Assembly: GCA_009741485.1 (NCBI GenBank)
Contig: CM019236.1
Location: forward strand, 53,091,278-53,155,277
Source: Malurus cyaneus samueli
Lineage: Eukaryota; Chordata; Aves; Passeriformes; Maluridae
Reading direction: 5' to 3'
Length of the DNA: 64,000 nucleotides
The position numbers were made by a program, and so were the translations under genes. Of the stretch, positions 8,193 to 63,165 are shown piece after piece. Numbering within the stretch: position 1 is the first letter of the stretch; each line of letters opens with the position of its first letter. The notes under the pieces were generated by a model. The model was not told where the DNA came from and did not search any database. It was given only the letters and a program-made list of their open reading frames with translations.

Positions 8193-8313
8193 GCATGGAA
8201 CTTGTTTGACTGAATAGGTGTGTTAAGCATTTATAAGCTCTTTTGTACAGGTATAAACTGTTACAGACAAAGGAGGTGGATGATGCTCAAATCGCTGGTA
8301 GGACACAAGAAGT

Positions 8314-9375: not shown

Positions 9376-12300
9376 CATAAGTAAAATATTATCTATATGG
9401 CACAAAATAGATGTGTTAACTTTAAGCTAATTTCTTTTCTGCTCTGCTTCAGGTAATAGCTTCTCTTTGAGCCAGTTCTCTTCTCTACTTGTTTTACTTG
9501 GCTTATATTGAACCTTGTAGATTAATTTTTTAATTGTATTTCCTATTGCACGAGAGCCAAAATATGGAAGTGGCTACATCCTTTAATTTTGTACCTTAGA
9601 TTCTATGCAAATAGCACAGAAATCATTATTTTTCATTCTGTGTCATTTTCTTCTTTTACTGATACGAAAAATATCAAAAAACAACAGGTGCAGCAGCTTT
9701 CAGCCAAGCCTAATTAAAAGGAATTCATTTTACATATAAATTAACAAGTTGATGTTTCCATTCTTTGTGACTCACTACCTCATCTTAAAAAGAATTCCCT
9801 GTTGTAACAGCAACTGTTAATTTTAGTGATTTCAATGTTTTTTTTGACCAGGAATGGACAAAGTGCTTGGATATTTTTTCTGTTCATCTGGCCCTTTCCA
9901 TCATTCTCATCAGATTGTTTCATGCTGCTTGAATGTCTTCTCCAGAGGACAAGTGTTTTCACCTGGTATCAGCCTAATTTTCATTTCTGATTCCCAGCTT
10001 CTGGCACTCCTCTCCCATTCCACCTCTGCACTCTTTGTCCCACCAGAGATTCAGGATGTCACTTCAGTGGCTTTACACAAGGACCACAAAGCTTTGTTTT
10101 GTCTCCATGGTTTTTTTCCCATTTCTCTTTTACTACTTTTGCTAGAGAGAGCAGCACACTATACACCAGTGAAAATGCTTCCCCTCAGCATAAGGAATTT
10201 TGATGATACGGGGTTTTTTTTGTCACTCCCAATAATAATTAAATATAATTAAAATGCTAATTAAACGTCCTGATTAGAGTTGTGCACCAGAGTGACCCTG
10301 GGAGCAGGTGGCTTGTGAGCATTCCAAGCCAGTGAAGCACAGCTGATATTTTACATCCAACTCAGCTGCACCTAAGCCAACAGTAATGGTCCTGGAGCTA
10401 CCCTTGAAGTAGCTAAAGTAGCAACCCTTAGAAGTGCAAAAAAAAAAAAAAAAAAAAAATAATCCACTGACAAACAGATTCTCCTTAAGCTCATGAAATT
10501 AGAACTATTTGGAAGATTAAAGGCAATTTCAGTACTTAAAGAGAATAATTGAAATACCAAGGGAACTCCACAAAGAAACTGTTGATAAAGCGAGGATCCA
10601 ACCACCGGGCCCCAAATGACTCTACATTATGTGTGTATCAGGCATGACATATACAAAAAAAAAAAAAAAAAACAGCTATTGGTATTGCTACTTTCACCTT
10701 CACTTCCTTTTCTGTGATGATCTACCAATATATTTGCTGCTCTAATTCTGCATCATTCTTTACTTAATGCTAATACTAATCCTTAATAAAAAAAAAAAAA
10801 AGGATGTTTTGGTTTATTTGGATTTTTTTTGTAATGGCATCACTCTGTGAAGCATAAAATGGCAGATGTGAAAGGTCTCAAGAAAAACTGATTATTTCCA
10901 AGTGAATCAAATACCATGTATCTCTTATGTCTTACTCAAAAGTACTACATTATTTCCATCCATGCAAAAAATGAGCTTAAATGGAGACACTAATCTTTAT
11001 TCTCGGAATTTCTTCTACATATTCCTCCCTGAAAGAGGAGGAAAAGAAAAGATTTTTGAAATATATAAGAAAGGTAGAATATAAAAAGAGATATATTAAT
11101 CTCTAAAAAAATATGCAGAAGTAATAAGAAATTTTCATGAACAGTATATGAATGGGCAATGTTCTTCAATTGCATCCTTCCTCAGCTGAAAGTTTTTCAG
11201 GTTCCTTAAAGATAAACTATCTAAAGGCTAAGTTTACTTGCTGTCATACTTTATCCGCATTTGTTGTTTGCCACACTGTTTATTTCTGTAGCTAGCATGT
11301 TGTGAGAAAACCACAATAAAAGACCCAAATTTCATAATCTTTTTCAGGTTTTTTGTAGTAGCTCACTTCGAAAATACAAATGTGACTGATTTTTGTTATT
11401 TAAAGTGAAGTGACAAATAGTTTTCTAAAGAACAGAACTGTTTTTGAATAATGGCAAGTTTCTTTCATATGTACTCACACCCTGTGTATTGAAGTCAGGG
11501 ACTCCACAGATATTGTCATTATTTCTAAACCTTTTTTTTTTTTTCCAGCTTGACAAAACCTGAATGACAGTGAGTTAGGAAGAGCAGCAGTTAGAGAAAT
11601 TTCATTCCATAGGCTGCTCTGGAACTCACTGTACTAATGCTGACACTACCACCACTGTGCTACTCTCTTTTTGCACTCCATTTATGATTTCCAAAACACA
11701 TGTTAATTTTTTAACATGTCCCAAACTGACAGAGCTGTCCAGATGGCCATGTAAATGCTTCCAGTGTCAATACTCAGGCAAACATGCATTCAGACAATTA
11801 TTTCTGGTATTATACTTAGCCCTGAACATTCTTCTGTATAAAAACTTGCTTTCAGAAACATTTGGAGAACATGAATGAAAAGAAATCTGAACACTAGGAA
11901 GCTGATTCATGGTTTCTATTCAAAAAACTGCTTGTGAAGGCTTCTAAAACAGCTATAATCATGAGCATATTCTTCTCACCCATGACCCAGATTAGAAGAA
12001 CTACATGGGTAACTTTAAACATGCAAATAGTGTCAGATACACACAGATTTATCTATGCAATTACATTTGCTCCTTAGCCAGGAGCTTTATGGTTTTTATT
12101 CATGGTCACCTTTTCCTGAAATGTTATAGGAAATCTTTAGGAATGGCATAAAAGCAGTGACTTAATGCAAGTGGGTAATCAGTCACCAACTTTAATATCA
12201 TAATGCAAGGGAGAAAGAACAACACTGGAACAAAAGAAGCAGATGAACCAAAGGAGAGACATAAATGAAAAGTAGCCATGGTAAAAATACATAAGGCCAG

Positions 12301-15300
12301 CATGACTGCCATTGTTAGAATATGAATGTAAAGCCAATTATTGTTAGGTTTAAAAGGCCAACCAATACAGAAATTGCTTGAAGTAATTCCAGGGTTAGAA
12401 TTGGCCCGTGATAATAAACACGGTGTGGATCCTTCAGTCGGCTGCAGTTTCACTAGGAAAAGAAAGCCTGTATGTGAACTGAGGGAAAAACACAAAAACA
12501 TAGTGACTAAGGAGTAGTCATTGTAACAGTGACTCAACAACTGAACATCAGAACAGACTATTTGAATAATTCTCCAATTATCAATTACATTATATTTCTG
12601 ATTATTATTTTTTATTTCTTTGTTATATATCCACTCAGAGCTTCTTCCTTTAGGAGAAAAATAAGGATTAATTTGTATAAAAGCCAAGACACTAATAAAA
12701 GGTTTTGTTACCTTTATAGAAGTATCCAAAAAAAAAAAAAACCTGAAAAATCTTAAATGTTTAAAAAAAAAAAAAAACAACTAAAACATGTTTTGCCATA
12801 AGGAGTTAAGGTTTCGGATCGATAATTTCTAGTACGTCGTAACACAAATCTTTAATCAATTATTTTTTTATTTCCACAATCCTACTGTACCTTCAGACCT
12901 TCTGCTCCTTAAGTATATGCAGAGGATAAAATAAATAAAATAAATAAAAATAAAATAAATAAAACATAATGAAAAATGAGGAGATTGCACAGAGAGCAAA
13001 CATCTAAGTATATATTGTTCTCCAGCAAATGCTTACTTTGAAGATTGACAACCTCAATTTGAGCTTAAATAAAGCAAGCCAAAGAAGAGCAGAAATTCCA
13101 TCTTTGAAGTGATTTGAATACTTGCTGAAGAAACCAACGTACTTCATCTTGGCGTGGTTGCAAATACAAGTGACACTTTTACTTCTCTTTCTATTTGGTA
13201 GACACTTCATACTTCTGCTCCTGTGTAAAATCATTTAGCATGGTAGCACACCTTCTCTGCTTTCATAAATCCAGGGAGAAGGGTCCATCATGCAGGGTAA
13301 AGATATCAGTAGCAACCCTATATTACATTAAAGGGAGGGTGATGTCTATGCAGCAACTGGATTGGTAAGGTTCTCCTTCTACTTTCATGAGATTTCACAG
13401 ATGGCCAGTCATAAAACTATAAGACTGTCTCCTGAAGAGACTGTGGGCACCATCTTCCAAAAGGCCATATTTTAATGGTGTACAATGCATCCTCTTTTCC
13501 AGTAAACCATGAGTAAAGAGGCTTATACTGAAGGCATGAATATTAAAGCCATGAAGTCACTTGTGTTTTCATCTTCCTCCACTAAAAAACAGAATGAGTG
13601 AAAAGAAGCTGGAATCTGAATACAAAGAGAAAATGGATTACACTAGCAATAATAATGTCAGTAATAGAGGCAAAAATAGAGCTAGAATTAAGCTGACATC
13701 AGTGACACAGAAGGAGAACTTAGATAAGGGAGTTAAGTGAACATGTTTTGCTTTGTTGGGATTCATTTTTAAGCAAAAACCAGATATATATAACCAGGGA
13801 CAGTCATATTTTCTTAAAGCAAAATGTAAAATTTTTCAAGATACTAAAATAGGTGGAATATTCTGCACTCGTTTCAATCCACTTTAGCCACTGACAGTTC
13901 TTGTGCACATCTACACGCTTCACATTAAAAAAAAAATACAGCAAAAAGCCCATAAGTTTGTGAGAAGAGTGTGATGAGTGAGTGATCTTTTTCCCCTGGA
14001 AACACTTTTCCTTGATGATAACAAATGAAAACATGTTACACACTTGAAGTAATGTATCATTATCTGGAGCAAAACAAGATGTGGCCTGATTACAATGCTA
14101 ATTACTTTGTCCTCAAGTCAAGGACTGGACTTCGAACTGTCTAATCCTTTCAATTTAGCTTTCAGACTCTGAAGTTTGAAGATGTATAAACGTTTCTCAC
14201 TAGAAGGTAACAATTTTTCTTTTTTAAAATTAGTTCTGCTGGAGAAAGAATCTCGAGTGAGAGAACAATGATTTGGACACAGGCTCCCTTGTGAAATAGT
14301 CTGGGGAGGCTCAGCCAGAGTTGCATTTGCTCCAGTATTTCCAAGAAGAGTCTTATAGAAAGTCAGATAGCATCAGTAGACTCAATCTGGCTATATTAAT
14401 AAATAAAAAATAAAAAAAAAAAAGTGAAAAGAAACTTGCAGAGAAATGTCTCTTTTGTCTGGCATCCTCTGAAAATTGGATTGTGTTGAAGAACTGTGCT
14501 ACTGAGTGACATAATCTGTGACCTGTACAGGCTTTTGCTGAGATTTGAGGAAGTGTCAGCTCTGTAAGGTTCCTCTTCATTCTTAGTGGTGTTTCTGCAG
14601 CTTCAGAGTAACCCACCCTCTAATTTTAGAGCAATTTTTGTCTTTCAATCGAATGCAAACAGCTTCCATTTATTGACTGTAGAGTAATTACTCAGAAAGA
14701 GTCTGCTAGGAATTTATATGTCAATTCCATTAGTGCAGCTTCTCGCTAATGGATCCTTGAACATTTTTTTTAAAAAGCATGTGACCAGTATAAACAGAAG
14801 TTGGAACAGCTTTTCTGTCCTGTAGATATGTTACATATGCCAGTATTGTTATTTAATTTTGCCTGGGGTTTTTTATTATTAGTTTAGTTTCATTTCAAAG
14901 CCTTAGAACTTTAATTTGTACCACAGAAAAGAAAATTACCATTCTGTGCCTTTTCAGTAGTAGGAACAATCTAATAACATTAATAGATACTAGTTTCTTC
15001 CTAACAGAAAGTTATAATCAAAGAAATTTACCTTTACCACCAACTTCTTCTGCTGTGAGGAGGAGACCAACACAGGTTACCGGGTTCCCATCTGTTCGTT
15101 TTCTCCCTGAACTAGGCATGAACTTTTCTTCCTTCCCCAAGACAAAGGCTGAGTGACATTTTTAGTTCTTCTTAGCCATGTGGTTAGCAGCTTTTTTTCC
15201 CTTTCCGGGCATTTTGGGGTTTTTTGTTCTCCTGGGGAAAAGGGAGGTGATAAGATTCTGATGGTTCAATATCTAAGTAATTCATTTTTTTTCTCTGTGC

Positions 15301-16158
15301 CATGCAGCACTTTGTTAATAAATTGTTGGGGGTTTTTTCACTTTCACAAACCAATATTGATCTCACATCAGTAAAGGGATTGCTGAAACCCTTATCTTTA
15401 GAGGAAATGCCCATCCCAGAGAGTTTTCTCCCAAACTTTTCTCTGAATCAAGACAGTAAACCAACAGGACTATCTTCTGTCATTCACCTCCAACTTGAGA
15501 ACAAACCCCATGGCCCTGCATATAGGGGTTCTCAAACACTCATATGAGATGTTTCACATTTCTTTCTGTCTTTCAAGTTTATCAAAAGTTGTTTGACAAC
15601 CATGACCACACTTTGCCGCTATAAAAACTGAGCACCTGCAAACAGTTCATTGCTTCCTCACAAAGAGACCCTGGTAAAATACCCCAAGAGCTTTTTGACA
15701 TTTGAATTCGTTTTGGTGCTCCATGCCTTAAATTCTTGCTGGTTAGACTTGCAATTACTCTACCTGTGCAATCCACAGGGCAAGTGAACATCAGACTGCC
15801 CAACTCCAGGACACTGTTCTGACAAGTACCACGTTACTGTGTACCCTGATGCCATTTTTCTACACACCAGGTCACACTTTCATGCGTCTGTCAGGGTCCT
15901 CAGTAAGATGATATTTCAGAGTCCTGCCTATCCACAGGCAACTGTATTTTAGCCCCTGCCAGTCCCAAAAAGTTAACAGGAACCTGACATGAAAACAAGA
16001 TTTGGGGAAGTTCAGTAACTATTTGGAAGACAGAAAATTAAGCAGATTACAGAGTTTCTTTTTACCCTTACTTCTAGTCATGAGGAGGGAGGTACTAATA
16101 ACCATTCAGAGTCCTGGAGAAAAAAAATAGAAAAAAAGAAAGAAAAAAAAAAGTGGAA
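9376..16158. other. Non-coding part of copy B
   Basis: No recognisable exon. It carries the same A/T homopolymers as copy A, an AAAT-like tract near 12,927-12,965, and short unlikely open frames. Confidence 0.6.
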
Positions 16159-16165
16159 AGATAGA

Positions 16166-16201
<36 letters not shown>

Positions 16202-16284
16202 TAGATAGATAGATAGATAGATGGATGGATGGATGGATGGATGGATGGATGGATGGATGGATGGATGGTGGATGGATGATGATG

Positions 16285-16326
<42 letters not shown>

Positions 16327-16360
16327 AAGATAGATAGATAGATAGATAGGATAGATAGAT

Positions 16361-16419
<59 letters not shown>

Positions 16420-16433
16420 GATAAATAGATAAG
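16159..16433. repeat. GATA/GGAT compound microsatellite (copy B)
   Basis: Regular 'gata' arrays on both sides of a 'tgga' array at about 16,221-16,277. It is longer and cleaner than the matching tract at 7,945-8,192. The minus-strand open frames across it encode only YLSI/HPSI repeats. Confidence 0.95.
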
Positions 16434-16557
16434 CATGGAACTTGTTTGACTGAATAGGTGTGTTAAGCATTTATATGAAGCTCTTTTGTACAGGTATAAA
16501 CTGTTACAGACAAAGGAGGTGGATGATGCTCAAAGTCAGCTGGTAGGGACACCAAGA

Positions 16558-32239: not shown

Positions 32240-33130
32240 CTAGAGCAATCAGAAATGCTTCCTTGGATGGGTTTGTCCATATTGGAGGCGGGATTGATCC
32301 AACGGTTTTTTCCCAACAGTCCCCTTGACATGCACTACCGGGCGAACTTCTATCTCCAACGTGGTGTGCAAGACTCAGATTGGGCAAGAGCGCCCGCGCT
32401 CGGTTGGTGGAGCACCTCGGGGTGTAACTAACGCACGTCGGCCTTTGCCAAGTGCCTTCTCCCAGTTTTTGAAACGTGCCTTCAACAGAGGTATTTCAGG
32501 AGATCCGTTGCACCATTTCACTTTGCCAGCAGCACAGGTGCATGGATCAAGGGATATGGTACACGACCATTAACGCCATGTTCCCCTAGCCAGGTGTTTA
32601 ATAAGGCTGTTCTGAAAATGAAAGGATCCTGTTGTAGACTAAACTCCTCTGCGTACCATGCCTCCAAGGACCTATGTGCTATACAAGGTCCAGGCACTAG
32701 GTGCTACGGGCATGACATGAGGTACAGGGTAAAAGTCTCCAAACATAACCAGTGGTGGCTTCACCTTGTGATAAAACAATATAGCGCTTGCCAAGAACGG
32801 GTCTGGGTGTGTGATGTAATCAATCCTGCACAAGGATTTCCCCGATACCAAATGTACTTGTCCCAACGAAACTTCCCACACGCACAGGTGGTTTCACCTT
32901 CGGCCCTCCTGTTTTGATGGCACACATGTTCAAGTCAATCGGATATACCCCTGGGAACGATACCCCGATCCATGGTTAGATGTCCACCCTCGCTCATGCC
33001 CACTTATAAGTGCGCATCTCGCCCTGGTGCCTGAGCATCATGGGACCATCGAGCTAGGAAACAACCTCCCCCTTGTGCTGCCCATCCAGATCAAATCTGG
33101 GAAACTCATCTATCTTTGGCAAGCCCTGAT
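32240..33130 (-). pseudogene. pol: ERV pol remnant: integrase
   Basis: The minus-strand translation, pieced over several frames, is integrase-like. One open piece (32,672-32,881) contains IDYIT, the setting of the first catalytic Asp in avian ERV integrases. A later piece corresponds to the central core and a C-terminal part ends near 32,175-32,387. The retroviral role would be joining proviral DNA to the host chromosome. Frame changes occur every 50-150 bases and no complete open frame exists. They may reflect decay, or sequencing noise, since the adjacent DNA looks uncorrected. It directly follows the RNase H remnant on the same strand. Confidence 0.7.
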
Positions 33131-33600
33131 CTACCTGCTCGTTTGTTCTGGTGCTCCTCATTAGCTTGCTCTTGGGGACATGGCAATTACATGCGGTGGA
33201 ACTTTCACGGGTAGCTTCTGGCACCCGGCAGCAATGTCTTTTCCACTCTTCAGCAGCCCAGATCGGTTTCCTCTACTAGACCCAATGAGCCTTTTCCATG
33301 CTGTCAGCCAATCCGCCAACAGGTCATTGGCCACCATCGCATTGAATCAGTGTAAAGGTAAAGCTTTGGCCACTTTTCCCTCTCAGCAATGTCCAAGGGC
33401 CAGCTGGATTGGCTTTGAGTTCGGCAAATTGACTTTGAATCTCACCTTCTCGCCTCTTGGCCTGTAGGCAATGCCTGTCGTGTTGGGCTCCCACATGGCT
33501 TGCTTTCCACTTTTGGTTCATTCCGACAATGCGGAAACAGGAGCCATCAGTGATAACAGAGCGTAGTGTTCTTCGTCTGTCAATTGGTTGTAACAGTGGA
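33131..33600 (-). pseudogene. pol: ERV pol remnant: RNase H
   Basis: On the minus strand, 33,530-33,560 encodes TDGSC, the usual start of the retroviral RNase H active site. About 180 bases later YLYTDSM appears (near 33,335-33,360), matching the conserved TDS motif. The reading frame breaks between the two motifs. The enzyme would degrade the RNA strand during reverse transcription. Order relative to neighbours (RT at higher coordinates, integrase at lower) is the normal pol order. Identification is by motif and order only. Confidence 0.75.
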
Positions 33601-34665
33601 TGCTTTTCAGCAACGTGTCACTTGTTCTTGCCTCCTCTTCATCAGCGAGATCAAAAGTTTTCAGCTTTCTGGGCCAATTTGTAATTATTCCAGGATCCCA
33701 GGGTGACTTTGGCGTCCCCAATCCAATGCGGGCCCAATGCGCTGAGTAATGAGAGCGATCCATTTGCTCGCAGGTAAGCAATCGGGTGGCCGTGAGGGGA
33801 AGGGAGACCTTTCCTTAAAAATCCACCCCAGCAACTGTGTAATCCGGGTTGCCAGGAGAAGTTGGGCTTCTGCCCGGATCTACTTCTGAAGCAGCTTGGA
33901 CTCCCTCATAGGCTGCCAAGATCTTCTTCTCTGTTGTGGGTGTAGCTTGGCCTCAGACCTGGTAAGCTTCGGCCCAGAAATCTCAGTTGGTCGCCTCGGG
34001 TCCTCACCAGGGACCTTCTGCCAAAGGCCTCCAGGACAGACCATCTGCTGGCCCAGCTTGCAGAGTATAGCACATTCTTGCACCTCCGTTCCTGTCCTGA
34101 CTGGGTCCGAGGGGCTATCACATGAGCGATTTTCCTGCTTGATTTGGGTGGAAAGGCTGCAGCTGAGTTCAGGGCCCCACCACCAGTGAAAATCGATCTA
34201 TAACTTGACGGGGTGACCGGTAGAGGGCCAATCAAACTGAGACACTGTATTCAGAGGAAGGCAAATCCCCCCTCCAAAGCCAATGGCACCACAGGGAAAG
34301 CTCTGTCAGTCTCCTATATTTGCTAGGTCGGAATATGGAGGACATCCCGACGTGATCCTTTATTGATGACATCAATGGGAAATGACCAACATCCATCTGC
34401 CACTTTACCCCAGGAATGGATCCTCTCGAGCAAGGTTGTCCCTTCCCCTTCACTTTGTTCCCTTTTTATGGCAAAGCAAAGCTTCTAGGAGATCTGGATG
34501 TCTTCCTCCCCCTTCTCAATATTCTGTGTTGCAGTGTTCCCACACAAATGACGTTCATCAATATAACTGAAGATGTTCTGGAGCCTCACCCTTTTCCAGC
34601 GCAGCCTGGATCAACCATGCAGATGGTGGGCTGTGCTTCACCCCTGGGGCAGCCGGTCCATCACG
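33601..34665 (-). pseudogene. pol: ERV pol remnant: reverse transcriptase
   Basis: On the minus strand, LPQG is encoded at 34,641-34,655. About 90 bases on, at 34,552-34,566, comes YIDE, in the position of the catalytic YxDD box, with the second Asp apparently lost by a one-base change or indel. LPQG followed by Y-I-D spacing is characteristic of retroviral RT; the Ile variant and the absence of env suggest an ERVL-like (class III) element, which is inference. The N-terminal side of RT falls into the 25-N gap. No uninterrupted frame is present. Confidence 0.7.
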
Positions 34666-34690
34666 NNNNNNNNNNNNNNNNNNNNNNNNN
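34666..34690. other. Assembly gap of exactly 25 N
   Basis: A second placeholder gap of exactly 25 N, here inside the retroviral pol remnant between possible protease and RT sequence. Sequence of unusual composition extends from it on the right. Confidence 0.98.
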
Positions 34691-47834: not shown

Positions 47835-48112
47835 GGCACTGCTCCACAGCGTCGGGCGGCTGACACGCGGTGACAGGAGCGCAGGCAGGAGGTCCGCAGC
47901 CCTGGACGCAGTTGCGGCGAGGATCGCGGCAGCGGCTAGGTCGGAGCAGGCAGTTCGGCACTCGGCGGATCACCAGGGACACGGAGCAGGACAGGCAGGG
48001 GCTGGGTCAGTGGAAGGGGCAGGGCAGGACTCGGCTGCACACAAGGTCAGGGGCAGCTGGGGTCCTGCCAGGAGCCCAGCAACGAGGGAAGCAGTAGCTG
48101 GACGAGCGAGAT
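47835..48112. other. CpG-rich GC-rich segment
   Basis: A roughly 280-base GC-rich patch with many CpG dinucleotides ('gttgcggcgaggatcgcggcag', split by short gaps), rich in 'ggcaggggc'-type words. It lies just beyond the 3' end of repeat-protein copy 1 (which is on the minus strand). A comparable CpG-rich patch lies beyond copy 2 at 55,275-55,480. It could be a small CpG island or part of the amplified unit. Confidence 0.45.
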
Positions 48113-48114
48113 AG

Positions 48115-48235
48115 CTAACATGTAGGGGTGCTATTTACATGTGGATTATACTATATATAAATATAGGTATGTATATATTTGTAAATATCTGTGTCTGTAT
48201 TATATAGGTAGATATCTAGAACATATAAGTTGTAC

Positions 48236-48272
<37 letters not shown>

Positions 48273-48400
48273 ACATATAGACATATATAGCTAATTTACA
48301 AATGGATACTTCTTTAGCAGGGGTGGATCATGGACTGTGGGGCTCCGTGGGAAGTCCAGGTCTTCTCTGGCTGTGCTGCTGTGCCTCTTGCTGCTCTTGC
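48115..48400 (-). other. 3' flank of repeat-protein copy 1, with (TA)n
   Basis: AT-rich 3' flank, on the minus strand, that matches 56,205-56,450 downstream of copy 2. Shared landmarks are 'gggtgct', a long series of tatata words, and 'ttacaaatggatact' followed by 'atcatggactgtgggg'. Includes an uninterrupted (TA)n run at 48,242-48,266. Confidence 0.6.
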
Positions 48401-48419
48401 AGTACCTAGGCTTTGGTCC

Positions 48420-48545
48420 TACTACTCTCGATGTTATGGGTTTGGAATGGTTTCTGGACCATAAGCCTGGCCTGCTTAATCCTCTCAGTTCTGTAGTAGT
48501 CCTTTGCATGCAGCCACACCACACCATCAGCCGAGGCGCTTTGTG
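48420..48545 (-). pseudogene. Terminal module of repeat-protein copy 1
   Basis: The minus strand encodes a last copy of the repeated module: ADGVVWLHAKDYYRTERIKQ, followed by ARLMVQKPFQ. It matches the corresponding module of copy 2 (56,514-56,620) almost residue for residue. It is out of frame with the preceding module array (48,623-49,327), so indels separate them. Function unknown. Confidence 0.5.
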
Positions 48546-48622
48546 TCCCATTGCGCTCGCCTGACCCAACAGCTGCTTGCAGTTGGTGTTACTGCTGAGG
48601 ACATGCCTACTGCATCGTCACA

Positions 48623-49327
48623 TTATGATGTTCTGCAACTCTGCAGGCTGGATTGATGGAACTCAGGTTTAGACATGTCCAGGACATCTCTCTGGATATA
48701 CTCAGCTGTGTCCAGTACATCCACGGCATCAGCTTTTTCGTGTCTCTTCCCCTTCCTTCCTTTGTGAGATGTGGCAATAGAGGCTAAGCGCAGTGCTCTC
48801 CAGACACGACTTGGACGTCTCACTTGAGCTGGAGTGCTGACGTCTGTCGGTGCAGAAAGGCTTTGGGCATGTCCTGCACATCTTTCTGTTTCTGATGGTT
48901 CCTCCGTGCTTAGCTCCGGGTCCAGCTGCTCCTCTGGATATTCAAAGGGCTTCTGGACCAGGAGCACAGCCTTCCTAACTGTCTCAGTCCGGTAGTGGTC
49001 CTTTGCGTCCAGGAACACCGCAGCATCAGCTGTCTGACTGTGCACGGTATGTCCTGGGCGCTCTGCATCCGCTACCGGACCTTTGATGTACCCGGCAGTG
49101 TCCAGGGGAACTGAACCATCAGCTGTGCCGCTGTGCAGGACATGAGCCAGGCCCTTTGCCTCGGCCGCTCTGCCTCTCGCTCGTCTCTCTGCTTCCATCC
49201 ACGGGGCACCCGGCTCTTTGAAGGGTCTCTGGACTATGAGCACTGCCTTCTTAATAACCTCAGTCCGGTAACAGTCCTTCGCATCGAGCCACACCACAGC
49301 ATCAGCTGCAGCGTGCTGCTTCTCCAT
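48623..49327 (-). pseudogene. Repeat-protein copy 1, module array part 2
   Basis: A 234-codon open frame whose translation is made of repeated modules. From the start: AAADAVVWLDAKDCYRTE, then HSGTADGSVPLDTAGYI, then SQTADAAVFLDAKDHYRTE, then a Glu-rich segment, then DAVDVLDTAEYI. The recurring core is LDAxD/ExY(R)TE, usually followed by KAVLxVQxPF. I recognise no family. No signal peptide or membrane segment is evident; the composition is charged and hydrophilic. The preceding frame (49,302-49,961) overlaps it by 26 bases one frame off, so a single indel near 49,310-49,330 would join them. Confidence 0.55.
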
Positions 49328-49961
49328 CTCCCCTTTCCTGTGTGCGTTCCATGGAGCCTACGTCCAGAGCCCTTAATGCCTTGTGGACAAGTCTCAGCTG
49401 TCTCAGTTGAGCTGGAGTGTTGATGTCTGTTGATGTGGGAAGGCTTTGGGCATGTCCTGCAGGTCTTTCTGTTGCTCCTGACTCCTCTGCACTTAGTTCC
49501 TTGTCCAGCCGCTCCTCTGGGTATTCAAAGGGCTTCTGGACCATGAGCACAGCCTTCCTAACTGCCTCAGTCCAGTAGCGGTCCTTTGCGTCCAGGAATA
49601 CCGCAGCATCAGCTGTCTGACTGTGCACGGTATGTCCTGGGTGCTCTGTCTCCGCTACCGGGCCTCTGATGTCCTGGGCTGTGTCCAGGGGAACGGGGCC
49701 ATCAGCTGTGGGGCTGTGCAGGGTGTGTGCTGCTCTCACTGGCCCTGCTACTCTGTGTGTTACTGCCAGTGTTGCATGCACTCTCTGTTCCAGGTGCTGT
49801 TCCTCCTGCAGCTCCTTGAGTCTCCGGTTCACATTTATAATCATTCTCTCCAACTTCCTCCTGTCACTCTCGCGTGTGTCCGGCCGATGCCGTGCCCAGG
49901 GTGTGGGCTGCTGCTGTTGCCGCTCTCCTGTCCTGGGTGCTGCAGCCAAGGCCCTGGGCAC
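49302..49961 (-). pseudogene. Repeat-protein copy 1, middle and module array part 1
   Basis: A 219-codon open frame. Its N-terminal third is Gln/Arg-rich (ERQQQQPTPWARHR) and has a coiled-coil-like LERMIINVNRRLKELQEEQ stretch. The rest holds the first module set: HSPTADGPVPLDTAQDI, then SQTADAAVFLDAKDRYWTE, then KAVLMVQKPFEYPEE. The module set repeats 582 bases downstream in the next frame, a period of 194 codons. The closest relative is 57,012-58,136 in copy 2. Unknown function. Confidence 0.55.
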
Positions 49962-50136
49962 AGCCCTTGGGGTGCTCTTGGAGACAGACGTCTGTCTCTC
50001 TCGAGCCAGGGCACTGATGACTGTGGGGGAAGGAGACCCGAATGTTGGTCGTGAAGGTTTTCTGCTTTTGTTGCCACCTCCATGCTCCGTGTCAGGTGTG
50101 ACTCTTTGTCTTCCAGCTGCTGGCCAGCACCCTGTT

Positions 50137-50742
50137 TCAAGGCTGCTCCTTGTTCAGGCCTTCAGCCCTGAAGACTGGGCCGGCTCTGGCAGAGCCTGTT
50201 TGCGGCCTGTTGGCTGCTGCCTTGTGCTCTCCTTTGCTTGGGCAGCAGTTAAGGCCTTCAGAGAACACTCCTCGCCTTGCTGGGAGACATCTGGCTCCCT
50301 TCAACCAGGGCGTGCAGGAGTGTAGGAAAAGGGATGGTGTAAGTGCGGGCCTGGCCTGCATCTGGGTGAGCTGCTGCCTGCTCCCCAACCTGAGAGGGCT
50401 CTTCCTGAGCTGCTGGGCTGACAATGACTGTGCTGTCTTCTCCTGCACTGTCTTCCTGGTGATGGACCAGAGATGACCCGTGTCACTTGTCCCGTGGCTC
50501 AGGTCAGTGTCTAGTGCATCACTCCATTCCTCCTCCTCAGACAGCTCAGCATCAAGGGCATCTTCCCACTCCTTGGACAAGGCCGCTGGCTTACTGATTG
50601 GAGCTGGGCTCTCTTGCCGCTCCACTATCACTGTGTGGTTTATGGGTGTCCTCAGCGAACCTCCTCCGTACCACCAGTGGTTGCTGTGGTGCAGTGCAGC
50701 CCAGCTCATCCGTGGGAGGCTTGTAGCCCTTGTCTGCCTCAT
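50137..50742 (-). pseudogene. Repeat-protein copy 1, acidic N-terminal part
   Basis: The minus strand carries ALSKEWEDALDAELSEEEEW, then SDALDTDLSHGTSDTG, the same acidic block that begins the long open frame of copy 2. After SDTG the frame shifts: copy 2 reads 'gacccagtgtc' on the plus strand where copy 1 reads 'gacccgtgtc', two bases against one. Beyond this point the 50,137-50,742 frame no longer matches copy 2 until other indels restore it. Copy 1 is therefore broken here unless the missing base is a sequencing error. Confidence 0.5.
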
Positions 50743-51337
50743 CTACGTCTCCCATTCTGTCGCTTTGGCACTCACTGGCCCAGTGCATCATCGAGCCCCG
50801 GAACACCTCTGGGGAAACCCTGTCCTTGGCCTGTGGCTCCCTGTCTCTCACACCATCCTGTGCAGTGGCGGTGGGTTCCATGAGCCATGGCCCCGAGGCT
50901 CCTGTCTGGGTCCTTGAAGGCCCCTCTTGAAGGACACGAGGATCTCCTTCAAAGCAGGCCCGTGCATCTTGTGCCACACAGCCAAAGTGCATTGGTGCAC
51001 TCAACTTGCACTGTCAGCCTTGCTTGGTCTGCTGTGCCCCTCGTCGCCTGTCCTGTCCCTTATCTGGCATTCCCGCTAGGAAAGCTGATACGGACATGAA
51101 ATTGCCTGCGCCGGCTGCGCTGCCGGCCACTCCTCCTCCATGGCTGCGGTCTTTGGCGTCGTCTGCCGCAGACAGGTCGGTGTTGCCCTGGGAAAGCTGC
51201 TGCCTCCTGAGAGAGGCGCTTCTAGACTCGGCATCCCAGAGCTCTCTGCTCCTTAACGCCCTCACGACGGGGTCCCGTGTCCAATGGCCTCTCTTTATGA
51301 TGGGCACTGCCTCGCAATGGGCCTGACCTAGGCCAGG
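50591..51337 (-). pseudogene. Repeat-protein copy 1, upstream open frame
   Basis: A frame open from 51,337 to 50,591 on the minus strand apart from one TGA at 51,014-51,016. It has no ATG at its beginning. Its downstream part (about 50,600-50,930) matches the 58,112-58,430 frame of copy 2: shared LGCTAPQ, then PLV, RR and F-EDT. Its upstream part (50,935-51,337; VPIIKRGHWTR... GNFMSVSAFLAGM) has no counterpart in copy 2. It meets the acidic block only through a frame change near 50,650. Whether it belongs to the same protein is uncertain. Confidence 0.4.
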
Positions 51338-51674
51338 TTAGCTGTGCCATTCTGTTGTCTCATAAGTCTTAAGAAAGACAATGAAAATTTAAATATCGTG
51401 AACAAGCTGAGAGATGAGAGGAACAAGCTTTTTTAGGCTCATGGATTTTAACATTGCTACCTATTGGCCGACAAAAGGACCCAAATCATTAACAGTGCAG
51501 AATACAGAAGGGTGAGAGGAAAGAAATGCTGTTATTTAATTTATGTTTTGGCTAAAAAAGCCTTCCCAAGCAGGGTTTAAATACAAGCAGGAGTTTATAA
51601 GTTTGTTTTGAGAAGCCAAGAAATCCTTAGGCAGGTTTAGGGTCATGACTTGTAGAAGGAACTCAGTTAGGTAT
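51338..51674. other. Non-coding DNA upstream of copy 1
   Basis: Return to AT-rich sequence. No core promoter could be identified with confidence. Confidence 0.4.
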
Positions 51675-52135
51675 CTCTGTTAGACATGTTTTTGTGGGAA
51701 ACTGATGGTCATGCAATGTGCTACTGAGCAACCCTATCTACAATTGATAGATGAATGAGATTAGAGAGATGGAAAAGAGGAGGACGTGACTACAGCAGTG
51801 TAACATGTACCTCGCGCTGACCATGAAGAAGAAACATAGTAAGAAGCAAGAACAAAGAGCAACTGAAAAACAATAGGATGATTGAAGAAAATGCAAAATG
51901 CTGAGAGCATTAATTTAAAACTGCAAGGCATACAAAAACACGCTTTTGAAAATATACCAATCATATGCTGTAATGTAATAGACAGACTGCTATATTAACC
52001 AATAAAAAATTGCTAATCATATACAGAGGGAAACTTATGAAAGTAGATAAAAAGGAGCTTGTATTAGAAATAAACAGATCATGCTCATCATATTGGTGCC
52101 TGCGTGACCTTGTGCCCCCGTCAACCAAAATTGGC
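51675..52135 (+). mobile_element. Possible solo LTR remnant
   Basis: The plus strand has an LTR-like order: 'tgttagacatg' start, 'accaataaaaaa' (CCAAT-like), 'gataaaaaggagctt' (TATA-like), 'gaaataaacag' (poly(A) signal), then 'ttggtgcctgcgtgacc' as in the R-U5 part of many avian ERV LTRs. No target-site duplication was found and the ends are guesses. Confidence 0.35.
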
Positions 52136-52335
52136 TACATAAGGAGACATCGCTTCCTCCTCATGCTCTGGGCTCTGGAATTCACTTCATCCTTTGGCCT
52201 TTCCGGCCCATTACAAGGTTTTTCTCTGATTCTCCCTGACACCTATTCACCCAAAGTCCTGCCAGAATTCAAGACTCTTTACTCTGTTATTTGATCTACA
52301 GAAATTACGTTTAAAATCATAGTCACAGAAAACAA

Positions 52336-52565
52336 GGAATCATAGAATTGTTGAGTTGGAACAGAACTTTTAAAGGTCATCTAGTCTAGCTCTCTTCAAT
52401 GAACTGGCATATCCTCAAGAAGATCAGGTTGCTCAGAGAGAGCCCCATCCAGCCTGACCTTGAATGTTTCCAGGGATGGGGCACCTGCCAGCTCTCTGGG
52501 CAACCTATGACAATGCTTCACTATACCTATTGAAAAATACATCTTTTCTAATAGAAATCTATCCT
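52336..52565 (-). mobile_element. CR1 LINE 3' fragment
   Basis: Starts at the low-coordinate end with 'gaatcatagaattgttgagttgg', the reverse complement of a CR1 3' terminus. It continues with 'ccccatccagcctgaccttgaa', 'ttccagggatggggcacc' and 'ctctctgggcaacct', all standard CR1 3' blocks. It is 5'-truncated and inactive. Confidence 0.88.
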
Positions 52566-53984
52566 CCTTAGACTTAATACTTGCACTGAATGCTGGAAAA
52601 TTTATCAGTGGTCCTAAAGAACCAGTTGTTTTCCTTCTGAAGAGCGCAGAACATCAGGCAGGAGAGATCTACTAGTGATGCTGTGTAGATTTCTAAAAAC
52701 AAGAATGTGTGGCTGGAAAACATACTGAATGTTAACAATGAACTTGTTGCAGCCATTTAAACTCTCCAACCTGGCTTGGGGGCTGGGTGGTAATTACTGC
52801 TAAGAACCTTCAACCATACTGGCCTATTTTTTGGAAGAGTTACTGGATAGAAATTGCCGGAAAGCATAATGAAAAAGATTTTGAATGATACGCCTCTTAG
52901 GCGTGAGTAAGCCAGTTGGTGCACTCCTCAGTCCTTAAAAAGGATGATTATGATTTGTGGACAGTTAGCCAGAAAAGTCCTTTTGAACTTCAAAGGATTA
53001 AACCAAGGGAATGACAAAGGACGGAATAACAAGTCTGTCTGGTAACCTCAGATAATAGTTTGATCCAGAGTGAGGCAAATCTCGATCCTGAACACACCTT
53101 AGCAAGGAACTGTGCTTGCAACTAAATGGATCACATGGATTAGGCGAGAATTAATTCAGGGTTTGATACTTTTTTGTCTGTCATGTCTTGCTCCTTAGTT
53201 CCCATTTTCACTTTCCTTAATGTGACGTTCCAACGTTACTTCATCATTGTGAAATTACAACCTCTTTATTTCAAATCATTATGGAATTATTATCCTTTTT
53301 TAGTTACTTATTTAACTAAATGACATTGAATCTGATTTGTTCTAGAACTGCCAAAACACTTTCTTTAACCCCTCAACAGATTTTGTGTATGTTTACTGGT
53401 CTAGTTCTTGTTGATTACTTATCTTTCAGCAGAGCCACCCATGTAAACCTCTAGGAAGTTCCAATTAGAACACTTCTGCAGATATTGCATCTCTGCTGAT
53501 TATTTTCGTTCCTCGTATTTTGGCTTAAGATAACTGCTTTTCTGTACCTATCCCTTCAGTGAAAAATCATCATAACTGCATTTCTTGATGTTACAACCAA
53601 CTACTGCAAACAAGGTTCAGGCAATCAAAGGGTAGCAAAGCCACATCAGGAGCCCTACTGTTAGGAAGAGCTTTTTTCCCTAAAGATTATTTAGCCATAG
53701 CCAAACCAAACACCTTCTGTACCTATTGATGTTCTGAAAATAGTTAAATAGGAACAAATTCATTTCTAAAATAAAATATTTCTGGATCTTGCCAGGTCTC
53801 TAGGATAAGCTAGTAAACCTCATAAAACCCACTTTTAGTTTTGTAGCTAGATCATCAATGATTTATATTTAGCTCATTGTCGTGCTGTTTGTCATTGGTT
53901 TTCTTCTCTTTTTGTTCCTGCATGTACATACAAATCTGCATCAGAGTCCGATATAGATTGTTTCCTCTATCTTTACTCACTCTC
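52566..53984. other. Non-coding DNA
   Basis: AT-rich; no exon or element recognised. Confidence 0.5.
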
Positions 53985-54505
53985 ACGAGCCTGGAGTATT
54001 ATATCCAGCTTTTCAGCTCCCACAGTTGGAAGATCATTGGATCTGGTATAGAGCAAAGTCTCTATAGAGGAGCATCGAACGATCGATTTAAGGACAAGGC
54101 AGCTGAGAGAGATGTAGGTTCTTCACGCCTGGAGAAGAAAAGTTTCCAGGACTTAGAGTCCGCCTTTCACTGAGTGTACAAGGTTGGGAGCTACCAAGAG
54201 GCTGGAGAGGACTTTTGTATAAAGGGGACAATGGTGTGATGCCATGGGAATGGCTTTAAACTGAAAGGTAGGTTGATTAGGTATTAGGAGGGATTTCCTG
54301 ACTATAGCCAGTAGACTGGTGAAATGAGGCACTTGGCAGGTTCCCAGGAAGCTGTGGCTGTGCCCTCCCTGGAAGGTTCAAGGCCAGGCTGGACATGGAG
54401 GGTCTGAGCAACTTTAGGTCCATAGTTCGCAGTTGATTCCAGTGCTTGCAGAGAGGCTGAAGCAGTGATGGTCTTGAAGTCTTTCCAACCTATGATTTAA
54501 ATGCT
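53985..54505 (+). mobile_element. CR1 LINE 3' fragment
   Basis: Plus-strand CR1: it begins 'cctggagtattatatccagc', has 'ggcagctgagaga', 'aggccaggctggacatgga' and 'ggtcttgaagtctttccaacc', and ends 'tatgattt', the CR1 3' terminus. Covers the end of ORF2 and the 3' region. Divergent from consensus, so old. Confidence 0.85.
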
Positions 54506-55274
54506 GTAGTTTCCTGGGAAAAATACAGCCTAATCTTGAGTGATTCACAATACATTTCTACATTCCTTTATGGAAGTGGTCCGCACGAGCACTATCTCAT
54601 ATGGTGATAAATCTGAGCAGGACAGCTGTTTCTTGTAGCTCCTGGAGTTGAAAGTACGATGTCTTTAAGAATATTCACCAGAGTACTCGATGAAAAAGGC
54701 GATTTCAACGAGATAGTTATCTTGCTGCTCTTCTCAATAATACTCTGTTAACCAAGTGCCGAAAAATAACTGGTTGTAAAACCCAAATTGCAAAGATTTA
54801 TACCTGGGAAAAACCAGAGAGTTTTTGAATTTTGTATTTCCTCAAAGGGAAACTGAGCATATTCATGTTTGCATGATCATTGTATATTCACACATTTTTG
54901 TTTTACTTCCAAAGCAATTTTGCTGCGTTGCTCTCATTTATGTTCTAAAGCATTGCCAACCCAGTATTTTAATTTTAAGTTTCCTAAGAAATATGTTTCT
55001 GGTGCCAACACTGGTTTTAGCATAAATAAAGTGATGTTGTGGTGACTTTAATGCGATCTCTGTTCGTTTCTCTGTAACTGTTATATTATCAGTATCATTG
55101 TTCTGGCATTTTGCGATGCAGGGACAGTATCACATATATCAGAAATTAAATGTGTGAAATTGGAATAAAGATGTTTGACTGTTTGCACTAGAAACAAATG
55201 TGTGCAGCTGAATTATTATATGGCTATGGTATGTGATACTTCAAGTGTTAGTCAGCATGCCTTTTCATTTACGT
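54506..55274. other. Non-coding DNA
   Basis: AT-rich with no recognised feature. Confidence 0.5.
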
Positions 55275-55480
55275 CGTTATCGTAATCGTCCGGAGCTGGG
55301 GCGTTAGTCGACGAGGATCACTTACAGTGACAACTTCTTCGCGGAGCGAGGTCGCTTGAGTCAGTGGCTAGGCTCGGACAGGCATGCTGATGTCACGCGC
55401 GGACGGGCAGCGAAGCAGACATGTGCACTGCGAGCTCAGAGTGCATGACCAGTTGCTTTCCCAGCGGAGAGGAAGGCAGA
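55275..55480. other. CpG-rich segment
   Basis: Abrupt change from AT-rich DNA to about 200 bases with many CpG ('acgtcgttatcgtaatcgtc', 'gtcacgcgcggacgggcagcg'). It lies between AT-rich DNA and a third copy of the repeat-protein 5' flank. Weak similarity ('cagtggctaggctcggacaggca') to 47,935-47,960 suggests it is part of the amplified unit. Confidence 0.45.
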
Positions 55481-55659
55481 TAAATGGGGGCAGGCGAGAG
55501 CTAGCGAGGGCAGAAGCTAAAAGACAGGCTGGAGCTGGAGCAAAAAGGGAAAAAGCTGGCTTGGGCCAGGGCAAGGAGCAGATGAATTTGCAAGCAAGCC
55601 AGTGAGTGAGCCCCCTCAGCAAACCAGAAGCTCGTGATACAGTTTGTTTTTCTACCACC

Positions 55660-55965
55660 TGGCCCCTCCAAAAGTTCGTCTGCTGACCAGGAGACCATTG
55701 GTCCACTACATCCTTCCCACACCGTCCATTGGTGGAACCCTTCCACCATCCTGTCGCAGATGCGTCTCTGGGGAGTGTGGTGTCTCGTGCTGACCACCTC
55801 TCCCATGTGAGGTGCTGCCAAGTGAAGTCACCCCACAGACAAGGCTTCCTCCATCTCTGTAGGCTGCCTCCTACAAGCTGCACATGTGTTCTCCCTCCCC
55901 CACATGCCTCTGACAACCATTGCTGAGACAAATCAAGATTCAAATGACTCCTCATATATGTCATT
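55660..55965 (-). repeat. 5' flank of a third repeat-protein copy
   Basis: Matches 58,436-58,710 (the upstream flank of copy 2) in the same orientation. Shared blocks are 'cattggtgg', 'acccttccaccatcc', 'gcgtctctgggg', 'acaaggctt' and 'cccccacatgcctctgacaa' ('ccat'). No acidic block or module array follows on its low-coordinate side, so the gene body of this copy is missing. A 203-codon minus-strand frame (55,368-55,979) spans it but is not obviously a protein. Confidence 0.65.
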
Positions 55966-56204
55966 GAGAGAACTTGCATTTATTGAATAAGTTCCGATAA
56001 TTTTTCAACTATTTCTGCTTTGTAGGGCATATCTGAAGTTGAGTGGGGGTGAGGGAGGGAGTTTTGCCTACATAAGAATACTGTTTTTGCGGTAAACAAA
56101 TATTTACAGAGTGTAGACAAAACTGACATACTAGCACAATATTACAAAATAAATACTAGTTTATTTCATTAATGTCAATTAATCAAATAACCTATGTGCT
56201 ATGA
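55966..56204. other. Non-coding spacer
   Basis: AT-rich spacer between the third 5' flank and the 3' flank of copy 2; no feature seen. Confidence 0.4.
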
Positions 56205-56450
56205 GATGCTAATGTATAAGGGTGCTCTATACATTTGTATATACAGACATATAGATATGTAAGTGTGTATGTAGGTTTAAAAATATCAGTGTCTCTACAA
56301 GAATATAGGTACAAATATCTAGGTACATATAGATGTGTATATATACATAAATATAGATACACATATATAGCTATTTACAAATGGATACTGTACTGTATGC
56401 AGCAGGAGTGAATCATGGACTGTGGGGTACTGTGGGGCACATGCAGGTCT
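56205..56450 (-). other. 3' flank of repeat-protein copy 2
   Basis: AT-rich minus-strand 3' flank homologous to 48,115-48,400. Ends toward the gene with 'ttacaaatggatact' and 'aatcatggactgtgggg' as in copy 1, but the tatata part is more diverged. Confidence 0.6.
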
Positions 56451-56513
56451 TTCTGCTGCTGTGCCTCTCGCTGCCCTTGCCCTGTCCATACTTCCTTTCT
56501 ACTTCTACCGATG

Positions 56514-56927
56514 TTATGGGTACTGGAATGGTTTCTGGACCATAAGCCTGGCCTGCTTAATCCTCTCAGTCCTGTAACAGTCCTTTGCATGCAACCACAC
56601 CACACCATCAGCTGAGGCGCTTTGCGTCCCATGCATTCGGCTGTCCACAGCTGCTGTAGTTGGTGATACTGCTGAGGACACATGCCTACTGCCTTCGTCC
56701 ACATTATGGTGTTCTGCGGCTGGATCCATGGAATTCAGATGTAGACTCATCCAGGACATTCTCTGGATATATCCGCTGTGTCCAGTACATTCAAGGCACC
56801 AGCTGTTGGGTGCCTCTTCCTTCCTTTGTGAGATGTGGCAATAGAGGATAAGCGCAGTGCTCTCCAGACAAGACTCGGTCGTCTCACTTGAGCTGGGCTG
56901 TTGATGTCTGTTGGTGCAGAAAGGCAT
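56514..56927 (-). pseudogene. Repeat-protein copy 2, 3' part
   Basis: The minus-strand 137-codon frame ends in the terminal module ADGVVWLHAKDCYRTERIKQ plus ARLMVQKPFQ, as in copy 1. Its upstream part is homologous to 48,640-48,900 of copy 1 at the DNA level ('gtgagatgtggcaatagagg', 'aagcgcagtgctctccagac') but is read in a different frame, so indels separate the modules. Copy 2 lacks one complete 582-base unit compared with copy 1. Confidence 0.5.
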
Positions 56928-57011
56928 TGGGCATGTCCTGCACGTCTTTGTTTGTGATGGTTCCTCTGTGCTTAGTTGCTTGTCCAGCTGCTCCTCTGGG
57001 TATTCAAAGGA

Positions 57012-58136
57012 CTACTGGACCATGAGCACAGCCTTCCTAACTGCCTCAGTCCGGTAGTGGTCCTTTGCGTCCAGGAATACCGCAGCATCAGCTGCCTGAC
57101 TGTGCATGGTATGTCCTGGGCGCTCTGTGTCCACTACCGGGCCTCTGATGTCCTGGGCTGTGTCCCGGGGAACGGGGCCATCAGCTGTGGCGCTGTGCGG
57201 TGCGTGTGCTGCTCTCACTGGCCCTGTTACTCTGTGTGTTACTGCCAGTGTTGCATGCACCCCCTGTTCTAGGTGCTGTTCCTCCTGCAGCTCCTTGAGT
57301 CTCCAGTTCACATTTACAATCGTTCTCTCCAGCTTCCTCCTGTCACTCTCGCGTGTGTCCGGCCGATGCCGTGCCCAGGGTGTGGGCTGCTGCTGTTGCC
57401 GCTCTCCTGTCCTGGGTGTTGCAGCCAAGGCCCTGGGCAGAGCCCTTGGGGTGCTCTTGGAGACAGACGTCTGTCTCTCTCGAGCCAGGGCACTGATGAC
57501 TGTGGGGGAAGGAGACCCGAATGCAGGTCCTGCAGGTATTCCTGCTTCTGTTGCCTCCTCCATGCTCCGTTGCAGGTGTGGCTCTTTGTCTTCCAGCTGC
57601 TGGCCAGCACCCTGTTTCACAGGCTGCTCCTCGTCCAGGCCTTCAGCCCTGACAGACTGGGCCGGCTCTGGCAGAGCCTGTTTGCGGCCTGTTGGCTGCT
57701 GCCGCTTGTGCTCTCCTTTGCCTTGGGCAGCCGTTAAGGCCTTCAGGAGAACACTCCTCGCCATGCTGGGAGACATCTGGCTCCCTTCAACCAGGGCGTC
57801 CAGGAGTGTAGGAAAAGGGATGGTGTAAGTGCGGGCCTGGCCTGCATCTGGGTGAGCTGCTGCCTGCTCCCCGACCTGATAGGGCTCTTCCTGAGCTGCT
57901 GGGCTGACAATGACTGTGCTGTCTTCTCCTGCATTGTCTTCATGGTGATGGACCAGAGATGACCCAGTGTCACTTGTCCCGTGGCTCAGGTCAGTGTCCA
58001 GTGCATCACTCCATTCCTCCTCCTCAGACAGCTCAGCATCAAGGGCATCTTCCCACTCCTTGGACAAGGCCGCTGGCTCACTGATTGGAGCTTGGGCTCT
58101 CTGCCGCTCTGCTATCTCTGTGTGTTTATGGTGTCC
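57012..58136 (-). CDS. Repeat-protein copy 2, main open frame
   Basis: The longest plausible coding frame of the locus: open from 58,136 to a TAG at 57,012, about 374 codons, with no ATG near its beginning. In order: an acidic block (SKEWEDALDAELSEEEEW), a Gln/Pro/Arg-rich middle, a short coiled-coil-like stretch (LERTIVNVNWRLKELQEEQ), and one module set (HSATADGPVPRDTAQDI, then ADAAVFLDAKDHYRTE, then KAVLMVQ). It stops exactly where copy 1 continues KPFEYPEE: the plus strand reads 'ggactactgg' against 'gggcttctgg' in copy 1, changing Lys to a stop. No homologous family recognised. The frame is conserved between copies over most of its length, which favours real coding history. Confidence 0.55.
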   Translation of the reverse strand, partial: GHHKHTEIAERQRAQAPISEPAALSKEWEDALDAELSEEEEWSDALDTDLSHGTSDTGSSLVHHHEDNAGEDSTVIVSPAAQEEPYQVGEQAAAHPDAGQARTYTIPFPTLLDALVEGSQMSPSMARSVLLKALTAAQGKGEHKRQQPTGRKQALPEPAQSVRAEGLDEEQPVKQGAGQQLEDKEPHLQRSMEEATEAGIPAGPAFGSPSPTVISALARERQTSVSKSTPRALPRALAATPRTGERQQQQPTPWARHRPDTRESDRRKLERTIVNVNWRLKELQEEQHLEQGVHATLAVTHRVTGPVRAAHAPHSATADGPVPRDTAQDIRGPVVDTERPGHTMHSQAADAAVFLDAKDHYRTEAVRKAVLMVQ

Positions 58137-58666
58137 TCAGTGAACTTCCTCCGTGCCACCAGTGGTTTCTGTGGTGCAGTGCAGCCCAGCCTCATCCGTG
58201 GGAGGCTTGTGGCCCTGTCCTGCCTCATCTCAGTCTGTCCCATTCTGTCGCTGACACTCACTGGCCCAGGTGCATCATCGAGCCCCCAGGAGCACCTCTG
58301 GGAGAAACCCTGTCCTTGGCCCTGTGGCTCTCTGTCCTCCACACCATCCTGCTGCAGTGGCAGGGTGGCTTCCCATGAGCCATGGGCCCCGAGGCTCCTG
58401 TCTGGCTCCTCTGAAGGCCTCCTCTTGAAGGCTCCTCCCCAAATCTGCCTGCTGACAGGACACAATTGGCTCACTCCAACTCTCCTCTGCAGTGCATTGG
58501 TGGGACCCTTCCACCATCCCATTGCAGAAGCGTCTCTGGGGTGCAGTCTCTCTGACTGCCTTCCCAGGAGGTGTTGCCAGGCAAAGTCACCCCAGAGACA
58601 AGGCTTGCCCATTGGCTGCCTCTTCAACTCACGTGTGCCCCTCCCCCACATGCCTCTGACAACCAT
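58112..58666 (-). pseudogene. Repeat-protein copy 2, upstream open frame
   Basis: A 184-codon minus-strand frame upstream of, and one frame off, the main open frame. Its 3' half matches copy 1 (LGCTAPQ, PLVARRKFTEDT). Its 5' half lies in the flank shared with 55,660-55,965. The frame break near 58,137 recurs at the same place in copy 1, so it is either an ancestral break or shows that this part is not in the same protein. Confidence 0.4.
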
Positions 58667-58710
58667 GTTGAGGCAAACAAATTAAAATGGCTCCTCACAA
58701 CGTCATTAAA

Positions 58711-62999: not shown

Positions 63000-63165
63000 C
63001 ACAGAATCACAGAATCATTAGGGTGGGAAGAGATCTTCAAGATCTTCAAGTCCAACCCATGCCCCAGCATCTCAACTAAACCACAGCATCAAGTGCCACA
63101 TCCAATCTCTTTTTAAACACATCCAGGGATGGTGACTTCACCACCTCCCTGGGCAGCTTTTGAAA
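63000..63165 (-). mobile_element. CR1 LINE 3' fragment
   Basis: Low-coordinate end reads 'cacagaatcacagaatcatt', the reverse complement of a CR1 3' tail. It continues with 'gggtgggaagagatcttcaag', 'tccaacccatgccccagc' and 'ttcaccacctccctgggcagc'. This is a short 5'-truncated copy of a younger-looking CR1 subfamily. Confidence 0.9.

Follow-up and report, generated by a model that had tools for sequence, protein, structure and literature searches.

The 64,000-nucleotide stretch of Malurus cyaneus samueli DNA analysed here (contig CM019236.1, positions 53,091,278 to 53,155,277; hereafter the window) contains at 48.1-58.7 kb two copies, A and B, of one GC-rich gene, both on the minus strand and both revealed by comparison of the window with itself. 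Compared with each other and with predicted bird proteins, A and B are shown by their sequences to have arisen by tandem duplication and to belong to a gene family without a name, of which the module-bearing relatives from named species are songbird proteins, and we are confident that this is a real, multicopy family in bird DNA. On balance and with some reserve, we favour the view that it is a songbird tandem family that is likely coding, and that its product would be a disordered, acidic protein with multiple helices acting as a multivalent scaffold. The family also appears to be fast evolving.

The family was identified through its relatives in other birds. A protein search with the longest open reading frame of copy A (57,012-58,136; 374 codons covering an acidic N-terminal part, a Q/R-rich part and the first module), in which the best 7,997 candidates were scored, returned one protein, P0001, a 409-residue open reading frame (ORF) on a 1,958-base contig with the source "lgn." A profile built from three window frames, with the best 7,994 candidates scored, returned nine proteins, namely, P0002 (238 residues, also "lgn") and eight hypothetical proteins of the barn swallow Hirundo rustica; more distant relatives may have been missed in both searches. 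A third search, with residues 228-446 of the swallow model P0005, gave thirteen proteins including the query, among them P0011 (the thrush Turdus rufiventris TURU_010996, a hypothetical protein of 716 residues), further swallow models, and P0016 from Vidua macroura, which has only a linker piece in common with the swallow models.

The thrush protein is collinear with both window copies and has the same kind of module, with 254 of 513 aligned residues identical to copy A (57,944-56,385) and 278 of 579 identical to copy B (50,455-48,680), or 48-50% in each case. For the N-terminal part covered by P0001, 159 of 271 residues are identical in A and 173 of 332 in B, and the homology thus runs through the N-terminal, middle, and module regions. 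Unlike the window copies, TURU_010996 is predicted, as a gene model, without any stop or frameshift and has four strict modules, and its annotated start lies inside a region in which P0001 and copy B reach further upstream. The nine module-bearing swallow clusters (DUI87_ proteins P0003-P0010 and P0012), of whose 41 member sequences only the representatives were inspected, are likewise multicopy and share the module unit. Eight carry two strict modules, 97-98 residues apart in every case, and one carries a single module; several lie on contigs of equal size, which we took as one contig, and all are automatic models fused to a linker block or to kinase or retroviral parts.

A preliminary description made from the letters alone had proposed a multicopy repeat-protein family with a layout that matched no known family, and both proposals hold. 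Members are now found in A and B, the thrush protein, the nine swallow clusters, and the two lgn ORFs, and the module-bearing relatives with names, all from thrush or barn swallow, are called only "hypothetical protein" by NCBI. The family's own parts gave only subthreshold chance matches in Pfam scans of the window frames and six relatives, and PDB sequence searches with the copy A frame, the module profile, and the thrush protein found no convincing relative. The Rfam scan of the window gave no family at gathering scores, matches to PHROGs were at chance level, one scan of viral contigs with the thrush protein found no match, and no paper was found that carries any of the five peptides or five locus tags looked for in the literature. 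Within the window, tblastn with P0011 at an E value of 1e-3 found no match outside copies A and B.

The two copies are arranged as a tandem pair, and all of their features given below are on the minus strand. Positions 49,386-50,933 of B match 56,867-58,431 of A at 92.4% identity, and 48,108-49,136 match 56,203-57,198 at 80.5%, with an offset of 7,479-8,080 bases between equivalent stretches. The GC content is 0.58-0.60 in the 1-kb bins at 49,001-51,000 and 57,001-58,000 and 0.36-0.45 across 51,001-55,000, in agreement with the two minus-strand GC-rich genes, some 7.5-8 kb apart in AT-rich DNA, that had been described. Also as described, both copies have the acidic N-terminal part (SKEWEDALDAELSEEEEW), the Q/R-rich part, and modules of the LDAKDxYRTE...KAVLxVQxPF type. 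The match limits define unit B (48,108-55,965, about 7.86 kb), consisting of an upstream segment at 55,661-55,965 and coding copy B, and unit A (56,203-58,707, about 2.5 kb), in which the matches lie back to back and the equivalents of 50,934-55,660 and of one module block are lacking. The upstream segment has one further copy in the window, at 58,430-58,707 (75%), and in copy A its match stops exactly where the coding match starts, at the breakpoint 58,430/58,431. The simplest reading of these matches is a tandem duplication of the 7.86-kb unit, after which A would have lost the equivalent of 50,934-55,660; the exact abutment is explained better by a deletion within one of the tandem units than by a long terminal repeat (LTR).

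The coding region of copy B runs from an ATG at 51,141 (context gcagccATGG), which aligns with residue 1 of P0001 in a frameshift-aware alignment, to a stop equivalent to that of A (48,434-51,141, from the P0001 and P0011 alignments), and by its length it is likely a single exon of about 900 codons. Two open frames in this copy encode the helical middle and a module (49,302-50,153, 283 codons) and two further modules (48,623-49,357, 244 codons). In the coding region of copy A (56,514-58,431, from frameshift-aware alignments to the same two proteins), the start-codon end present in B is missing; the region begins near the equivalent of P0001 residue 73 and ends in the natural stop at 56,516-56,514. 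The copies had been called two genes of like build, and both are indeed present, but they are unequal: A is cut at the 5' end and has no ATG, B has an additional module block (48,817-49,139, an 87% duplicate of 49,400-49,722 in the self-comparison) and is thus one block longer, and both frames are interrupted. They had also been called apparently intronless, and no intron does interrupt the coding part when it is aligned with the thrush and lgn proteins, although this does not extend to a possible noncoding upstream exon. The stretch at 51,142-51,400 may hold the promoter and the 5' untranslated region of copy B (CpG observed/expected 0.65 and GC content 0.57 at 51,000-51,400), and the upstream part of unit B at 55,300-55,965 may be a second promoter or first exon (CpG observed/expected 0.62 at 55,300-55,700).

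Judged from sequence comparison, the family is very probably protein-coding, although the proof first offered for this, that the frame is kept between the two copies over hundreds of codons, proved weak. The copies are too alike in the center (90-98% identity per 100 columns), and the frame is broken many times. The ratio of nonsynonymous to synonymous substitution rates (dN/dS) between the copies is 1.41 in the center, while a wrong frame gives a lower value of 0.36, and for these reasons the argument does not carry. Coding is better supported by the collinear matches to the 716-residue thrush protein and the 409-residue P0001, by the stretch of copy A at 57,944-57,015, which aligns to the thrush protein with zero frameshifts and only whole-codon gaps, and by the modules. 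The six module cores in the window, of 32 codons each (57,000-57,095 and 56,520-56,615 in A; 49,521-49,616, 49,214-49,309, 48,938-49,033, and 48,439-48,534 in B), give a pooled dN/dS of 0.45 (0.21-0.91) in the true frame, while the interval includes 1 in each of the other five frames, and three divergent representatives give 0.37 (0.17-0.78); with a stretch of 28 codons and module pairs that are not independent, these values are support rather than proof. All six fit a loose pattern, itself built from these modules, that did not occur in 20 mononucleotide shuffles of 48,001-58,700.

The strict form of the module, VFLDAxDYxxTEVVKKAVLxVQxPF, occurs four times in the thrush protein, at spacings of 168, 97, and 97 residues, and L8, E17, A22, and L24 are invariant in all 12 module cores compared. 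Helical moments were 0.5-0.6 for eight of the nine cores tested, and the ninth was not amphipathic (0.34; p 0.78). An AlphaFold2 model of the thrush protein gave a mean pLDDT (predicted local distance difference test score) of 43 and no overall fold, with most of the chain disordered. Helices were predicted over three of the four strict modules (320-346, 498-514, and 595-611, with best block means of 74, 56, and 59) and over a degenerate module at 427-446 (best block mean 67), but also outside the strict modules, such as at residues 46-75, where two helices reach block means of as much as 82. The modeled protein is thus likely mostly disordered and acidic, with a short helix repeated along the chain, often 97 residues apart. 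Such a flexible acidic chain would present the same short helix several times, each docking the same partner, and we tentatively suggest, as a possibility that we would not yet call probable, that the protein is a multivalent docking scaffold. Disordered scaffolds with repeated short helices, such as the A-kinase anchoring proteins, are similar in their predicted disorder and short helices, but the modules do not fit the RII-binding consensus (one of 12 has the required residue type at key column 15) and no homology was found; membership among the A-kinase anchoring proteins was rejected.

A number of results speak against a coding scaffold family. The central dN/dS of A versus B (interval, 0.76-3.34) shows no purifying selection in their recent divergence, purifying selection in the 5' part is not significant (0.64; 0.21-1.98), the 3' part is too small to decide, and the low value in the wrong frame of the center (0.18-0.67) means that the dN/dS method can mislead here. 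The window holds no intact copy, and the exons behind the thrush gene model were not seen, so the open length of this protein may partly stem from the model. The module spacing is not uniform: in the thrush protein, the first and second strict modules stand 168 residues apart, and in P0002 the distance is 52. Amphipathicity compared with shuffled sequences is borderline (p 0.04-0.16 for eight cores, only two of them below 0.05), the last strict thrush module, at residue 689, has no predicted helix, and the structural model has very low confidence and was built on 11 aligned sequences. Finally, the PAK-like kinase that some swallow models place beside the family has no counterpart in the window, where the kinase parts of P0009 and P0013 as tblastn queries gave a best E value of 0.79.

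We give even chances to the explanation that both window copies are decayed pseudogenes with real lesions and that the family functions elsewhere in songbirds. Compared with its relatives, copy B has 13 frameshifts and 2 in-frame stops, the count in the diverged 5' part being dependent on the alignment, and copy A has no start codon, 4 frameshifts, and 1 in-frame stop ahead of its natural stop. The stop in A, at 57,014-57,012, arises from a base substitution and not from a gap, and the central dN/dS also fits decay. The condition of the assembly speaks against it. The alignment of A with B (1,572 columns) has 88 substitutions (transitions/transversions, 54/34) and 26 gap events, and 20 of the 26 are bases absent from B and 24 fall within the first 900 columns, like a poorly polished patch; homopolymer errors are not supported as their cause, with 4 of the 21 single-base gaps in runs of three or more. 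Elsewhere in the window, an 8-kb direct repeat (387-8,310 versus 8,627-16,557; 95.8%) around a 25-N gap (8,314-8,338) shows 151 gap events between its two copies against no more than 82 substitutions (transitions/transversions, 20/62). Many gaps with few substitutions are unusual for natural divergence and typical of long-read error, and the repeat has the appearance of a duplication falsely created by a noisy assembly, although the gene region was not shown to be equally noisy. Near the ends of both repeat copies lie ATAG/AGAT microsatellite arrays (7,941-8,185 and 16,159-16,431). In view of the resemblance of this gap-heavy repeat to long-read error, we put the chances that copy B is broken in the bird itself at about even; it may be intact if its single-base gaps are assembly errors. 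Copy A is the likelier pseudogene and probably nonfunctional, since its original start region is lost and its in-frame stop came from a substitution.

It is unlikely that the module exon is an alternative tail or head of songbird PAK3-like kinase genes and not a gene of its own. This explanation draws on the swallow models, where P0009 unites a kinase with the linker block and also with two modules and P0013 joins a PAK-like kinase and the linker, and on Vidua P0016, named "MAP7 domain-containing protein 1-like," in which the swallow linker piece occurs three times. The linker block, probably an exon, is found with a short piece beginning MIGQL in P0003, P0004, P0007, P0008, P0012, and P0015 and with retroviral domains in P0005, P0012, P0014, and P0015, and it is present in P0013, P0014, and P0015, where the strict module is absent. 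A cautious reading of the swallow joins is that neighbors were fused by gene prediction in automatic models. Pfam shows no kinase domain in the thrush protein or in either lgn ORF, copy B shares its ATG with P0001 and has a CpG-rich upstream region, and no kinase is present in the window, all of which counts against an origin of the module as a kinase exon. By eye, there is a resemblance between the later part of P0016 and the N-terminal part of P0013, the PAK-like kinase of the swallow.

In the swallow, the family would lie near PAK-like kinase genes. On chromosome Z of the zebra finch, PMC13060935 reports 200 copies of PAK3L, grouped into ten main clusters, with at least seven copies expressed, particularly in testis (PMC13060935, citing Kong et al. 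2010), and according to PMC4373106, the expansions of PAK3 and PIM1 were not seen in the canary genome. The zebra finch arrays resemble our family in their songbird tandem amplification, and the swallow linker is modeled beside PAK-like kinase parts; unlike them, neither the window nor the thrush protein has a kinase. It is conceivable, but a long shot, that this is an ampliconic family of the songbird lineage that was coamplified with PAK3-like kinases, as their germline docking partner or substrate, with a conflict-like turnover of module and copy numbers.

We also consider it unlikely that the family is a gene of a transposable element or endogenous retrovirus and not a host gene. The family is multicopy, integrase domains are found in the swallow models P0005, P0012, and P0014, with RNase H as well in P0012, and gag p24 is found in P0015, retroviral pol remnants are present at 32.3-33.8 kb of the window, and copy A is flanked by two direct repeats of about 300 bases each (75%; 58,430-58,707 and 55,661-55,965). 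This pair, however, is not bounded by TG...CA, the bases on its outer flanks differ, and there is no third copy beyond copy B. Since copy B has one upstream segment only and the pair lacks the marks of an LTR, one segment per tandem unit fits better, and the segment at 55.3-56.0 kb was rejected as a retroviral LTR. Furthermore, no Pfam transposon or retroviral domain was found in the window frames, P0011, P0001, P0002, or P0007, the viral-contig scan gave no match, and the linker block is also modeled beside kinase parts, with the retroviral joins looking like neighbors fused by gene prediction. The shared upstream and 3' flanks of the tandem units argue against a processed retrocopy, no search for target-site duplications having been made. 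The pol remnant itself (32,254-33,768, minus strand) is decayed and resembles the RNase H and integrase parts of swallow P0005, P0012, and P0014.

The identity between the copies varies along the gene. Per 100 columns, it is 85-89% at the 5' end, 90-98% in the center, and 84-93% in the rest of the coding part, and it falls to 76-82% in the last two rows, past the stop codon into an AT-rich simple stretch, with 76% in the 100 columns after the stop. The central dS is only 0.03. Synonymous sites are thus alike as well, which is beyond the reach of protein constraint, and it is likely that recent gene conversion has homogenized the exon between A and B. Unequal exchange would account for the additional module block in B, and the two processes together would change both the number of modules and the number of gene copies.

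In songbird genomes, fast-evolving genes occur in tandem arrays that are poorly handled by assembly and annotation, and the family described here has no domain model and only the name "hypothetical protein" at NCBI in the module-bearing records found, yet it is present in two songbird genera. Should it be expressed with the PAK3-like arrays, these arrays would gain a second protein component, and a kinase-scaffold pair would make the role of the PAK3-like expansion testable. The window also demonstrates a trap, in that frameshifts alone do not prove pseudogenes in a noisy assembly.

Elsewhere in the window, a second 25-N assembly gap lies at 34,666-34,690, and AATAAA occurs 124 times versus 67.6 expected, a count that we did not use as evidence. 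An exact (ATTCTGTG)2, which we take to be the 3' end of bird CR1 elements, is present at 63,000-63,015 on the minus strand; in keeping with bird DNA, this motif occurs four times in the window at up to two mismatches, once exactly, compared with 0.27 expected.

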